Part shown: piece after piece, positions 23,738-28,163 of the stretch | Numbering within the stretch: the stretch's first letter is position 1 | Layout: each line of letters starts with the position of its first letter | Assembly: GCF_018129995.1 (NCBI RefSeq) | Contig: NZ_JAFCKS010000001.1 | Coordinates: forward strand, 62,001 to 126,000 | Reading direction: 5' to 3' | Length of the DNA: 64,000 nt | Source of the DNA: Bradyrhizobium sp. SZCCT0153 | Lineage (GTDB): Bacteria; Pseudomonadota; Alphaproteobacteria; Rhizobiales; Xanthobacteraceae | Notes under the pieces: model-generated | What the model saw: the letters and a program-made list of their open reading frames with translations, nothing else | The model's database searches: none | What the model was told of the DNA's origin: nothing | Program-made: the position numbers and the translations under genes

Positions 23738-24103
23738 GTGAGCGATTTCGATCAGATGGGAATTGTCGTCGATTGGGTGGACGCCTGCAGGAAGGGCGAC
23801 CTCGCGACGCTGCTCGACCTCTATGCGGACGACGCCGAGGTCGAATGCACCTGCAACGGCACGCAGAGCTATCGCGGCCGCTTCGAGCTCGAGACCTATT
23901 GGGGGCCGCGGCTCAGCGCATTCTCGTTGGCCGGCTTCGGTCTCGAGGAGATCCATCCCGTGCCGAACGGCGTCGATCTCGAATATTCCGTCGCAGGCTC
24001 GCTGCGCGTTCACGCCACGTTTCGCTTCAGTGCGGAAGGCAAGATCCACAGCACGCTGTGCGTGCCGGCGCGACAGCACGCGCATCACGGCTGCGCGTGC
24101 TAG
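23738..24103 (+). CDS. NTF2-like (SnoaL/ketosteroid-isomerase fold) protein
   Basis: A 121-residue protein from GTG 23738. The fold signature is DACRKGDLATLLDLYADDAE, then YRGRFELETYWGPRL and a final strand GSLRVHATFRFSAEGKIHST. Several cysteines (ECTCNG, HHGCAC) are unusual; the HHGCAC C-terminus could bind a metal, which is speculation. An alternative GTG at 23690 would add 16 residues. The 3' end overlaps the opposing kinase gene by four bases. No function can be assigned. Confidence 0.7.
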   Translation: MSDFDQMGIVVDWVDACRKGDLATLLDLYADDAEVECTCNGTQSYRGRFELETYWGPRLSAFSLAGFGLEEIHPVPNGVDLEYSVAGSLRVHATFRFSAEGKIHSTLCVPARQHAHHGCAC

Positions 24104-25452
24104 CTCTGCGCCGGCCCGTCGCGCGTCGTCTGCACCGGCAGACGGCAACGCACATAGGTTCGTTCATCCGCACGCAGCAATGACAGCGATCCGCTGAGTG
24201 CACGCACGCGCTCATGCATGCCGGTCAGGCCCCGGCCGAAGACGTTGTCTTCGGGAAATCCCGCGCCGTCGTCGGAGATCTCGATGACGAGCGCGTCGTC
24301 GGAGACGGCGGCCTGCACATGGACATTGCGTGCTGCGGCATGGCGCAGCACGTTGGTCAGCGCCTCCTGGATCACGCGATAGACGGTCTGGGCCAGCGGC
24401 CCGTCGATCCCGTTGAGGTCAGGATCGACCGTGGCCGTCAGGCCGATATGCGGGGCCTGCTTGCGAAAGTTCCGGAGCAGCGTCTGCACGCTGGTCTCCA
24501 GGCCCAATTCCTCGATATAGAGCGGCCGCAGCCGCTCGAGGATGCGGCGGTTGGTCTGCTGGAGCGCCTCGACCGATTGCAGCACCTCCTGGGCCGAATT
24601 GCCGAGATATCCCACCGGCGGTGAGGCCTCGACCAACGCGATCGTGCCGGCGCGGATGCTGAACAGCAGCGGGCCGAGCTCGTCGTGCAGATCGCGGGCG
24701 AGATCGCGCCGCTCGTCGTCCTGGAGCGACACCAGGCGGTGCAACAGGTCGCGATTGTCCTGGCTCAGTTGCGCGAGCGTCGCGGCGAGCGCATTGGCTT
24801 CCTCGCAACTTTGACGTATTTCCGGTGGTCCTGCTATCGGGATCGGCGTTGCGTAGTCGCCGCTTCGTAACCGCGTGAGACCGTCGCCAAGATCTTGCAG
24901 GGGGCGTAGCGCCGAGCCCGCAAGGACGTAGGCAATGATCGCCGTCAGTCCGATGAGCGCGAGAACGAAGCCGGAAAGCGCGAGAAAGCCGACCCACTTC
25001 TCGAACAAAGCAGCGGACAGATCTGGCGTGAACACGATGTTGCCGGCGTGCTGGCCGTCGACGGTAACGGGAAATGCGATATGCAGGTCCGGGATGGTGA
25101 GGAGATCGACGAACCATTTCGGCGGGCCGTGCAGAGGCCTCGGCGCCAACGAGGGTGAACCAGCCCCCACGGGGCGGAATTGGATATCCGAGGATGTGTC
25201 CAGCATCCGGACGAAGTCGTCCAAGGTCCTGCGCGGGTTACCGGACGAACGCAGGGCGCTGTTCAGGGCCTCCGCCACCGCCCGGGTCGATCGCAGCGCC
25301 GGCTCGTTCTCTTCGGCGAGCTGGCCGATCGTGAAGGCATGCAGCAGGACGCCGCCCATGAGCAACGCCGTGATGAACATCACACCGAGAGGGAGAAACA
25401 ATTGGGCCCTGAACGAGAGTCGCTGCCACATTAGGTCGATTCTAACGCGCAT
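24100..25452 (-). CDS. NarX/LiaS-type sensor histidine kinase (HisKA_3)
   Basis: The 450-residue membrane kinase starts with one transmembrane helix (residues about 18-40), a periplasmic sensor region of about 120 residues, and a second helix (GFLALSGFVLALIGLTAIIA). A HAMP segment follows (LRPLQDLGDGLTRLRSGDYA). The HisKA_3 box is DERRDLARDLHDELGPLLF, with the phospho-accepting His. The HATPase has VIQEALTNVLRHAAA (N box) and ISDDGAGFPEDNVFGRGLTG (G boxes). It is divergent from the LuxR-type response regulator at 25518, almost certainly its partner. The stimulus is unknown. Confidence 0.92.
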   Translation of the reverse strand: MRVRIDLMWQRLSFRAQLFLPLGVMFITALLMGGVLLHAFTIGQLAEENEPALRSTRAVAEALNSALRSSGNPRRTLDDFVRMLDTSSDIQFRPVGAGSPSLAPRPLHGPPKWFVDLLTIPDLHIAFPVTVDGQHAGNIVFTPDLSAALFEKWVGFLALSGFVLALIGLTAIIAYVLAGSALRPLQDLGDGLTRLRSGDYATPIPIAGPPEIRQSCEEANALAATLAQLSQDNRDLLHRLVSLQDDERRDLARDLHDELGPLLFSIRAGTIALVEASPPVGYLGNSAQEVLQSVEALQQTNRRILERLRPLYIEELGLETSVQTLLRNFRKQAPHIGLTATVDPDLNGIDGPLAQTVYRVIQEALTNVLRHAAARNVHVQAAVSDDALVIEISDDGAGFPEDNVFGRGLTGMHERVRALSGSLSLLRADERTYVRCRLPVQTTRDGPAQS

Positions 25453-25517
25453 CGGCGGAATTTGCTCTTTCCATTTGTTCCCGTCGGTCTATGAGTCGAA
25501 AAACGAGAGAGCGCGCG

Positions 25518-26162
25518 ATGCAAGATACTGCCAGGCCGGCGACAAGGATCCTGATCGTCGACGACCATCCCGTGGTGCTGTCAGGTTGCCGCACCCTGTT
25601 CGCTTCCGATCATTCGATCCGGATCGACGAGGCGACCGACGCCAAATCCGGGCATCGCGCCTATGTCAGCAAGCGGCCCGACGTCACGGTGATCGACATC
25701 AGCCTGCCCGACGTCTCCGGCTTCGAGCTGATGCGACGCATCCGCAAGGAAGATCCGGACGCCAAGATCATCATGTTCAGCATGAACGAAGACCCGGCCT
25801 TCGTGGTGCGGGCGGTCGAGCTGGGGGCGCAGGGCTATGTCTCCAAGGGCGATGATCCCAGGATCCTGCTCAAGGCGGTGCGCAAGGTGGTCGCGGGGGA
25901 CAATTTCATCTCGCCGCAGCTTGCGGAAGCCGTGACGTTTTCCGGCGCGGCGATCAAGGCCAATCCGGCCTCGCAGATGACGCCGCGCGAACTCGAGATC
26001 CTTCGCCTGCTGGGGCGAGGCGACAAGATCGTGGAGGTCGCCGAGGCCCTCGGTATCTCCTACAAGACCGTCGCCAACACCACGTCCCTGCTCAAGCAGA
26101 AGCTGGGTGCCAAGAACCATTCCGACCTGATCAGGATCGCGGTGGAAATTGGAATGAACTGA
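25518..26162 (+). CDS. LuxR/NarL-type response regulator
   Basis: The 214-residue partner of the divergent kinase. The receiver domain has ILIVDDHPVVLSG (acidic pocket), VTVIDISLPDVSG with the phosphorylated Asp, and AQGYVSKGDDPR with the conserved Lys. The C-terminal LuxR helix-turn-helix is MTPRELEILRLLGRGDKIVE, then EALGISYKTVANTTSLLKQK. ATG 25518 follows GAGAGAGCG; an earlier ATG at 25491 lacks a ribosome-binding site. No intrinsic terminator follows for 370 bp. Confidence 0.92.
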   Translation: MQDTARPATRILIVDDHPVVLSGCRTLFASDHSIRIDEATDAKSGHRAYVSKRPDVTVIDISLPDVSGFELMRRIRKEDPDAKIIMFSMNEDPAFVVRAVELGAQGYVSKGDDPRILLKAVRKVVAGDNFISPQLAEAVTFSGAAIKANPASQMTPRELEILRLLGRGDKIVEVAEALGISYKTVANTTSLLKQKLGAKNHSDLIRIAVEIGMN

Positions 26163-26454
26163 TTTTCCGCCGCCGAACCGGCTGCTCCAGGATGCTGCCG
26201 GTTCGGCGGGTCGGACAGGTCTCGGCGCTCAGCCGGGCAATGCATGGATCGCGCCGCCACCCAACCGCCGACACAATGGGTTGAGGTGGCATTCGTTCCC
26301 TGAATCGCCCGTTGCCTGGGAAATAGCGGCAAGACGCGACGACCGGCTGCACGGAGGCGTTCCCCGGTGCACGACCCGTGACGGGAAAAATAGGAACATC
26401 TTCTCGCATTCGCCGTTTTCGCCCTTGACGGTTTCGTGACAGGCGACGAAAGCT

Positions 26455-26564
26455 TGCGTCCACAGTTTTAGCGGGTCCGCGACCCGCGCCCGGCAAACTG
26501 GTCTGCAAACGTCAACGACAGACCTTCCAGGAGAGAGGGCTGCGGCATCGCCGCAGCCCTTTTT
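26455..26564 (+). ncRNA. Candidate small RNA with three stem-loops
   Basis: Three stems in sequence: GCGGGTC-CGC-GACCCGC (26471-26487, perfect), GGTCTG/CAGACC with a 13-base loop (26500-26524), and the GC-rich terminator stem at 26537-26559 ending in TTTTT. A TTGACG -35-like hexamer is at 26425-26430 but the matching -10 is poor, so the 5' end is a guess. The terminator sits 375 bp past the nearest upstream stop codon and 180 bp before the next gene, so it does not obviously serve either. I do not recognise the family. Confidence 0.45.
26537..26564 (+). terminator. Strong orphan intrinsic terminator
   Basis: GGGCTGCGGC and GCCGCAGCCC form a perfect 10-bp stem around ATC and are followed at once by TTTTT. 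Confidence 0.8.
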
Positions 26565-26744
26565 CGTTGGGGTGGCCTTTTTCGTTGAGCGGCCCTTGTC
26601 GATGAAAAGGTCTTGGCGCGAAGCGGTTTCCCGATGCCACAAAACACTTTATGGTGGCCCAAAGCCTCTGGCTGTTGACAAGTAATTTCGTAAAATCAAA
26701 GGCTTGCGGATCGAGCCCGGCTCGGCCGGCCTTTGGAGGGCAGT

Positions 26745-28163
26745 TTGACTCGTTATATCTCGACCCGGGGGGAGGCCCCCGAACTCGGCTTCTGCGATGT
26801 GATGCTGACCGGGCTTGCCCGTGACGGCGGCCTCTATGTGCCGGCTACCTGGCCGCAACTGTCGACTGAAACCATCGCCGGCTTCTTCGGTCGTCCCTAT
26901 TGGGAGGTCGCGGTCGACGTGATCCGTCCCTTCGCCGGCGGCGAGATCACGGACGCCGAGCTCGGCCGCATGGCCAACGAGGCCTATGCCACCTTCCGAC
27001 ATCCGGCGGTGGTGCCGCTGCGCCAGATCGCGCCGCACCAGTTCGTGCTGGAGCTGTTCCACGGTCCGACGCTCGCCTTCAAGGACGTGGCGATGCAGCT
27101 GATCTCGCGGCTGATGGATCATGTGCTCGCCAAGCGCGGCCAGCGCACCACCATCGTGGTCGCGACCTCCGGCGACACCGGTGGCGCCGCTGTCGATGCG
27201 TTTGCCGGCCTGGAGAATGTCGATCTCATCGTGCTGTTCCCGCACGGCCGCATCTCCGAGGTGCAGCAGCGCATGATGACGACGACGGGCGCGGCCAATG
27301 TCCACGCGCTCGCCATCGAAGGCAATTTCGACGATTGCCAGGCACTCGTGAAGGCGATGTTCAACAACCATCGCTTCCGCGACGCGACCTCGCTGTCCGG
27401 CGTCAATTCCATCAACTGGGCGCGCATCGTCGCCCAGGTGGTTTACTACTTCACCTCCGCCGTTGCCGTCGGGGCGCCGGCGCGCGCGGTGGACTTCGTC
27501 GTGCCGACCGGCAATTTCGGCGACATCTTTGCCGGCTATGTCGCCAAGCGCATGGGCCTTCCGGTGCGGACCCTGCGCATCGCCGCCAACGTCAACGACA
27601 TTCTGGCGCGTACGCTGAAGACCGGCATCTACGAGGTACGGGAGGTACACGCCACGGCGTCGCCTTCGATGGACATCCAGATCTCCTCGAATTTCGAGCG
27701 GCTGATGTTCGAGGCCGGCCGGCGCGATGCCGCCGGCGTGCGCCGTCTGATGGATTCGCTGAAGCAGTCGGGGCGCTTCGTGCTGCCCGATGCGACGCTG
27801 GCCGCGATCCGCGAGGAGTTCGACGCGGGCCGCGCCGACGAGACCGAGACCTCGGCCGCGATCCGCGCCGCCTGGCGCGAGGCGGGCGAGCTGGTTGATC
27901 CCCATACCGCAGTGGCGCTCGCTGTCGCCGACCGCGATACCACCGACACGACGGTTCCCAGCATCGTGCTGTCCACGGCCCATCCGGCGAAATTCCCGGA
28001 TGCGGTCGAAGCGGCCTGCGGCCAGCGGCCGCAACTGCCGGCCTGGCTCGACGGTTTGATGACCAAATCCGAACACAGGAAGGTGATGAAGAACGATCAG
28101 GCCGAGGTCGAGCGGTTCGTGCTGTCGGTCAGCCGCGCCGCAAAACAGGGAGTTGCCGGATGA
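26745..28163 (+). CDS. thrC: Threonine synthase
   Basis: PLP enzyme that makes L-threonine from O-phosphohomoserine. The start is a TTG at 26745 (reads TRYISTRGEAP after the initiator), chosen because GGAGGG lies four bases upstream and the family begins MTRYISTRG. The 472-residue product has the PLP lysine in HGPTLAFKDVAMQ, the phosphate-binding VATSGDTGGAAVDAF, and GVNSINWARIVAQVVYYF with FVVPTGNFGDIFAGYVAKRM. The stop overlaps the next gene by four bases, so it is translationally coupled to an M16 protease. The same pair is common in this group. Confidence 0.95.
   Translation: MTRYISTRGEAPELGFCDVMLTGLARDGGLYVPATWPQLSTETIAGFFGRPYWEVAVDVIRPFAGGEITDAELGRMANEAYATFRHPAVVPLRQIAPHQFVLELFHGPTLAFKDVAMQLISRLMDHVLAKRGQRTTIVVATSGDTGGAAVDAFAGLENVDLIVLFPHGRISEVQQRMMTTTGAANVHALAIEGNFDDCQALVKAMFNNHRFRDATSLSGVNSINWARIVAQVVYYFTSAVAVGAPARAVDFVVPTGNFGDIFAGYVAKRMGLPVRTLRIAANVNDILARTLKTGIYEVREVHATASPSMDIQISSNFERLMFEAGRRDAAGVRRLMDSLKQSGRFVLPDATLAAIREEFDAGRADETETSAAIRAAWREAGELVDPHTAVALAVADRDTTDTTVPSIVLSTAHPAKFPDAVEAACGQRPQLPAWLDGLMTKSEHRKVMKNDQAEVERFVLSVSRAAKQGVAG

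Follow-up and report, generated by a model that had tools for sequence, protein, structure and literature searches.

A Candidate Stress-Induced Small RNA in Bradyrhizobium, Probably Descended from a Decayed Protein Gene

The Locus and Its Features

In the genome of Bradyrhizobium sp. SZCCT0153, an intrinsic terminator lies orphaned in the 582-bp gap between the stop codon of a response-regulator gene (26162) and the likely TTG start of thrC (26745). The question raised by this locus is which RNA ends there and what that RNA derives from. All coordinates refer to the window, that is, the whole stretch of 64,000 nt that was analyzed. The first-pass annotation had described three successive stem-loops in a gap of this length without a credible gene, and the window sequence bears this out in position and size. 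The first hairpin is GCGGGTC-CGC-GACCCGC (7 bp, 26471-26487), the second has the arms GGTCTG/CAGACC (6 bp) and a 13-base loop (26500-26524), and the terminator stem is GGGCTGCGGC-ATC-GCCGCAGCCC (26537-26559), after which TTTTT runs to 26564. The single ORF of the gap that was scanned (26229-26642, minus strand) had no Pfam match, and a micro-ORF considered below varies like noncoding DNA. The features are the following:

25491..26162, plus strand: upstream neighbor, LuxR-type response regulator (domains Response_reg and GerE)
26382..26389, plus strand: conserved CGGGAAAA just 5′ of the promoter (mean identity 0.96, 74 rows)
26393..26417, plus strand: putative sigma-EcfG-type promoter, GGAAC-N16-CGTT (from motif and conservation)
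~26424..26564, plus strand: predicted small RNA of ~140 nt (start deduced from the promoter, end from the terminator)
26424..26454, plus strand: conserved 5′ domain, CTTGACGAT...GTGACAGGCGACGAAAGC (mean identity 0.97 in 26424-26432 and 0.92 in 26437-26454)
26471..26487, plus strand: first hairpin, unconserved (paired in 66.5% of cells, 74 rows)
26500..26524, plus strand: second hairpin, conserved (paired in 99.6% of cells, 41 rows selected for an exact 5′ arm)
26525..26536, plus strand: linker TTCCAGGAGAGA, predicted to be partly single-stranded
26537..26564, plus strand: intrinsic terminator (paired in 100% of cells, 41 rows)
26745..28163, plus strand: downstream neighbor, thrC, threonine synthase (TTG start picked by eye after GGAGGG)

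The segment 26455-26570 folds at -55.6 kcal/mol versus -39.2 (sd 3.85) in shuffles (z -4.26, none of 200 as low), and its reverse strand folds well too (z -2.77, 1 of 200 as low). For the predicted transcript (26424-26568), z is -4.54, again with none of 200 shuffles as low. The main terminator at 26537-26564 was not reported by a consensus terminator scan.

Three observations concern the surroundings. Directly 3′ of the response regulator there is a conserved inverted repeat, CCGAACC...GGTTCGG (26173-26206), without a T run. Between the terminator and thrC, a stretch strongly conserved in 13 aligned loci (26640-26710, AAAACACTTTATGGTGGCC...ATCAAAGGCTT) is perhaps the promoter or leader of thrC. 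The sensor kinase of the 24100-26162 region is divergent, with ~59-65% identity among relatives whose response regulators are 94-98% identical.

Distribution and Conservation of the Unit

The DNA search of 41 genomes located the region or a part of it in 17, of which 16 are Bradyrhizobium (the window's own genome included) and the seventeenth, from another family, matches in the terminator only. The 13 aligned loci present a single unit, in which CGGGAAAA, the GGAAC-N-GTT motif, CTTGACGAT and a block extending to 26454 are followed by a variable stretch with the first hairpin and, in the 3′ part, by the second hairpin, the linker and the terminator. The small RNA proposed in the first pass thereby gains conservation and a promoter motif, and its terminator does end the conserved unit; its predicted start moves ~30 nt upstream, from 26455 to ~26424, and the upstream half of the unit (26382-26454) had been missed.

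A pattern scan of named genomes returned 77 stretches, 74 at this locus and three chance matches (L054, L111, and L114), which were dropped. All 74 locus records are named Bradyrhizobium or Bradyrhizobiaceae, except for one labelled Frankia. This record (L073, JAUEPE010000029.1, Frankia sp. RB7) carries the Bradyrhizobium locus with a thrC 95% identical, which points to an error in its label or assembly. Of the 74 loci, 69 show the regulator upstream and 69 show thrC downstream, with both visible in 64 and neither in none; fetched fragments often end nearby. The 74-row alignment comprises the window and 73 loci, as L073 is cut by its fetched fragment; conservation of the hairpin arms and of some linker bases is meaningless in it, because the scan pattern fixes them.

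The hairpin was found within 1.4 kb of the regulator in all 97 listed genomes of the genus whose regulator is at least 89% identical. In 86 of them it has the exact pattern, always on the regulator's contig and 140-1379 nt away, and the other 11 are variants that were read individually. The covariance model R1 matched at E 0.01 or better in 313 of 391 family genomes under stricter filters. Among the matches listed, all those of at least 58 bits are within Bradyrhizobium, and the best outside the genus scores 41.9 bits versus 41.3 for the antisense strand of the locus. The weak outside matches are read as terminators, judged by score alone; among the matches listed, the element is found only in the genus Bradyrhizobium. 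The window's own genome yielded no further copy, the next best match having an E value of 0.19.

The conservation of the stems, whose absence the first pass had named as a refutation, holds for the second hairpin (99.6%) and the terminator (100%) and fails for the first hairpin (66.5%). A possible weak hairpin in the 5′ domain (26432-26451) has 83.8% of its cells paired. The 41-row alignment, from a search allowing three mismatches, was anchored on an exact GGTCTGC, and the 5′ arm of the second hairpin is therefore invariant by choice; within this set, 14 cells change from U-A to U-G and two from G-C to G-U with pairing kept, and one G-A breaks it. These changes are one-sided (U-G or G-U only) and stem from few independent events. 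The terminator has three doubly changed pairs in the same rows, and control helices slid along the alignment pair in 34.5-53.6% of cells. Both helices together have 33 doubly changed cells versus 12.5 in shuffles (0 of 500 as high, 41 rows), but the closer 74-row set shows neither this excess nor clear covariation (score 0.040 vs. 0.035 shuffled, 12 of 500 as high; RNAalifold covariation term -0.12). Tandem copies of a AGAGAAAGTCCA-like unit make up an expanded linker between the hairpin and the terminator in two loci, L167 (G011) and L283 (G421).

The statement of the first-pass annotation that no known family is recognizable stands for the Rfam covariance search. Release 15 gave no match at the gathering cut-off at the locus, nor in one full-gene and two reduced-form loci (described below), and matches under the cut-off (the best being STnc390, E 0.2, and ar35, E 2.2) were taken as chance.

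A Putative EcfG-Type Promoter

GGAAC-N16-CGTT is the reported motif of sigma-EcfG1 of Rhizobium etli, an alphaproteobacterial general stress factor (PMC3892343). At the locus, GGAAC is exact in 71 of the 74 rows, and mean identity is 0.98 in GGAAC and 0.88 in CGTT versus 0.67 in the spacer. The motif also matches as a regular expression 100-109 nt 5′ of the hairpin in 68 of the 74 named loci. Since the motif by itself occurs at the frequency of chance, both in the window (1 found vs. 0.92 expected) and genome-wide (128 vs. 147 for the reversed pattern), the case for a promoter is one of conservation.

A gene for NepR, a component of the EcfG system, is present at position 363052 of contig C1, and the predicted RNA lies ~275 kb away at ~88,424-88,564 of the same contig. 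By its promoter motif the candidate would be placed in the EcfG regulon, and its expression would be expected to depend on ecfG and phyR. A consensus scan for sigma-70 promoters found none; CTTGAC at 26424 is a possible -35 box, with no good -10 box seen after it.

A Small Protein Gene at the Same Locus

Elsewhere in the genus, this locus contains an EcfG-type promoter, a gene for a protein of ~75 residues, a hairpin at the end of this gene and a terminator. The protein looks exported, with a signal-peptide-like start recognized by eye, and neither Pfam nor NCBIfam gave a match to it at E 1. The hairpin's 5′ arm contains the codons GTC TGC of the gene, and the stop codon lies in the loop or adjoins it. 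Correspondingly, the 5′ arm of the window's second hairpin shares homology with the gene's Val-Cys codons, and the loop with the stop-codon region. The linker (C)TTCCA(A/G)GAGA is also present in most full-gene and reduced forms. None of the 74 named loci contains a match to the protein.

A regulator match at E 1e-60 was obtained in 187 of 195 genomes of the genus among the matches listed, many of the weakest probably being paralogs. The 60 loci inspected are a chosen part of these 187, weighted toward genomes without the exact hairpin pattern, and consist of 15 full genes with motif and hairpin-terminator, one full gene without the motif, eight reduced forms, 16 noncoding forms and 20 loci with neither gene nor hairpin. 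The last class indicates that the element is dispensable in some lineages. In the full-gene loci, another ORF lies between the regulator and the small gene (matched in 13 of 15), and thrC is within the fetched 2.0-2.65 kb in only two of 15. This extra ORF (70 residues, L014:975-1184), which neither Pfam nor NCBIfam matches, does not occur in the window.

All eight reduced forms retain the motif and the hairpin-terminator, and the span from GGAAC to the hairpin is 66-189 nt in them versus 265-275 nt in the 15 full genes. Seven retain 10-16 in-frame C-terminal codons, while G135 has a 36-codon ORF whose first part has lost its resemblance to the protein. A ninth reduced form is G508, and G019 retains only a piece of the N-terminal part. 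The old stop can be followed as well: ACA AAT TAA is still present in G007 and G062, TAA is replaced by CAA in most noncoding forms, and in G045 ATGAAGGTCTGCACA persists ahead of the hairpin loop.

In the phylogenetic trees of the kinase-regulator DNA and of the regulator only, the eight reduced forms require two origins, inside full-gene branches. One supported branch of both trees, which are unrooted, parts the noncoding rows from the others, apart from G050, whose row was cut from the wrong side and is ignored. The long branch that G007, G016, and G062 form in the kinase-regulator tree probably reflects upstream DNA other than the kinase (L012 and L013 gave no kinase match).

Sixteen more distant copies of the gene (L028-L043) retain the Lys-Val-Cys-Thr end, and 13 of them have a GGAAC-N-GTT motif at most 170 nt upstream. 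The GACAGACC arm was not seen, reading by eye, in the 110 nt downstream of the 16 copies. The Lys-Val-Cys-Thr end common to the parent gene and its paralogs indicates that the gene came first, and since the distant copies keep this end without GACAGACC, the hairpin arm of the noncoding form appears to be inherited from a protein-coding end. More generally, these small exported-looking proteins form a family with several copies per genome in the genus, most with an EcfG-type motif and without Pfam or NCBIfam match. Downstream of several paralog copies there is a further, very short ORF starting MPV(L/I)ILWAVPAV.

The conserved 5′ domain may or may not derive from signal-peptide codons, a comparison made with six forms. 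G007, G045, G042, and G166 align at one spot; G007 does better there than its shuffles (2 of 200 as good), unlike the other three (69-83 of 200). G016 and G062 align elsewhere, with 5 and 6 of 200 shuffles as good.

Origin and Action of the Predicted RNA

As read from the aligned DNA, the locus holds a conserved unit that is homologous to a gene and has lost its frame, with separate internal deletions elsewhere: the window's group has lost the coding part, and at least two further lineages have shortened it in separate events. The unit has its own promoter motif and an intrinsic terminator and no conserved reading frame, as a trans-acting small RNA would, and its hairpin and terminator share homology with the end of the small gene's mRNA, as in a small RNA derived from a 3′ UTR. 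The locus probably encodes a stand-alone, stress-induced small RNA of ~140 nt which descends from a decayed protein gene; its transcription, EcfG control and trans action, and any target, are what we infer.

According to this explanation, the ancestor would be an EcfG-controlled gene for an exported-looking protein of ~75 residues. Its coding middle would have been lost and its stop would have decayed, while the promoter, linker and terminator would have been kept together with the hairpin that encloses the former stop. Under general stress, RNA polymerase with sigma-EcfG would transcribe the RNA from the promoter at 26393-26417 up to the terminator. The RNA would most likely act in trans by base-pairing through the conserved 5′ domain, the TTCCA linker or both, while hairpin and terminator would give it stability.

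It is also conceivable, though we lean slightly against it, that hairpin, linker and terminator already acted as a regulatory RNA at the 3′ end of the coding mRNA, so that selection keeps the RNA and not the protein. If so, at least three lineages could dispense with the protein while retaining promoter and RNA, and the forms would represent a gradual natural path from mRNA to small RNA whose intermediates still live.

Alternative Explanations

The main rival is a mere relic, that is, the undecayed promoter and terminator of a dead gene, perhaps transcribed and without function, and it is unlikely. A simple internal deletion leaves promoter and terminator in place, other lineages have lost the gene or the whole element (the 20 of 60 loci above), and no target was found for the one idea tested. 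On the contrary, a relic accords poorly with a hairpin retained in every one of the 97 listed genomes, or with an identity of 0.92-0.98 in promoter box, 5′ domain and terminator versus 0.67-0.79 in neighboring columns. The 5′ domain, moreover, is conserved in the window's group though the full genes did not show it.

That the RNA is a short micro-peptide mRNA, read from the 11-residue ORF at 26436 or from leftover C-terminal codons, is improbable. Of 74 rows, 69 have GTG or ATG at 26436, 42 continue from there for at least eight codons and 30 for 11 codons, and the reduced forms do keep their in-frame C-terminal codons. However, only 33 of 133 changes in codons 1-7 are synonymous, and the commonest micro-ORF varies like noncoding DNA, for which reason a conserved micro-ORF was rejected. 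The frame also ends at differing places, and the old stop is lost in most noncoding forms.

The first-pass annotation had offered, as alternatives, a leader of thrC (or attenuator) and a long 3′ UTR of the response regulator. The element does sit between the two genes in the window's group (both seen in the 64 loci above), its hairpin starting ~177-293 nt before thrC. These readings are nevertheless disfavored, because the element has its own EcfG-type promoter motif and terminator and, in the full-gene lineages, adjoins neither gene, being the 3′ end of the small gene in 15 inspected loci. The element is probably neither, and little credence is left for this pair. Least credible of all is control of the paralogous small-protein mRNAs through pairing of the RNA's 3′ arm with their Lys-Val-Cys codons, the only target idea tested and rejected as not above background: the own-genome paralog (L038, G000:C12:251468-251680) has eight contiguous bases complementary to the RNA (AAGGUCUG), but by duplex energy this pairing comes only 337th among 1278 background windows, the best 5% include no paralog of the 16, and the pairing segment is buried in the second hairpin.

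Comparison with Known Small RNAs

The stress-induced small RNA favored here resembles GsrN of Caulobacter and ReC64 of Rhizobium etli, which are described as EcfG-controlled (PMC5869019, PMC3892343). Like these, it would be small, intergenic and of the same general size class, and it would have a promoter of the GGAAC-N16-CGTT type. Beyond Caulobacter, the search for GsrN-like RNAs had been directed at the surroundings of the ecfG-phyR locus (PMC5869019). Unlike GsrN, the predicted RNA is not beside the ecfG-nepR-phyR genes, and the C-rich 5′ loop is absent, with no run of at least four C seen by eye in 26424-26460. Its probable origin in a decayed protein gene would set it apart from both GsrN and ReC64.

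Small RNAs derived from 3′ UTRs, for instance in enterobacteria, consist of a conserved mRNA 3′ end with its terminator. The conserved part of the present unit is likewise an mRNA 3′ end with terminator, but those small RNAs coexist with their parent gene, whereas here nothing but the RNA follows the old promoter, the protein part having disappeared.

In B. japonicum, the orphan RNAs BjsR1-BjsR10 are mostly Bradyrhizobium-specific, and the promoters of the ten Northern-validated small RNAs are listed as RpoD, RpoN or none (PMC5082802). The candidate shares their genus-specific orphan status and, judged by these listed promoters, is probably distinct from them. The start-site paper on strain USDA 110, whose dRNA-seq data are deposited as GSE69059, gives 1701 orphan starts and no motifs beyond RpoD- and RpoN-like ones (PMC4842269); the predicted RNA may be among these starts. 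For the small RNA NikS, derivation from a degenerate toxin-antitoxin system has been considered possible (PMC8687705). Neither the present RNA nor a gene-to-small-RNA series was reported in the titles and abstract openings found, in which the subscription literature is sparsely covered.

Implications

To our knowledge, the origin of bacterial small RNAs is poorly understood. Within one genus and at the same chromosomal place, an intact gene, several reduced intermediates and a finished noncoding form are found. The proposed path from mRNA to small RNA would thus be testable by swapping the forms. The locus also adds a candidate general-stress small RNA to a group of bacteria that includes the soybean symbionts.
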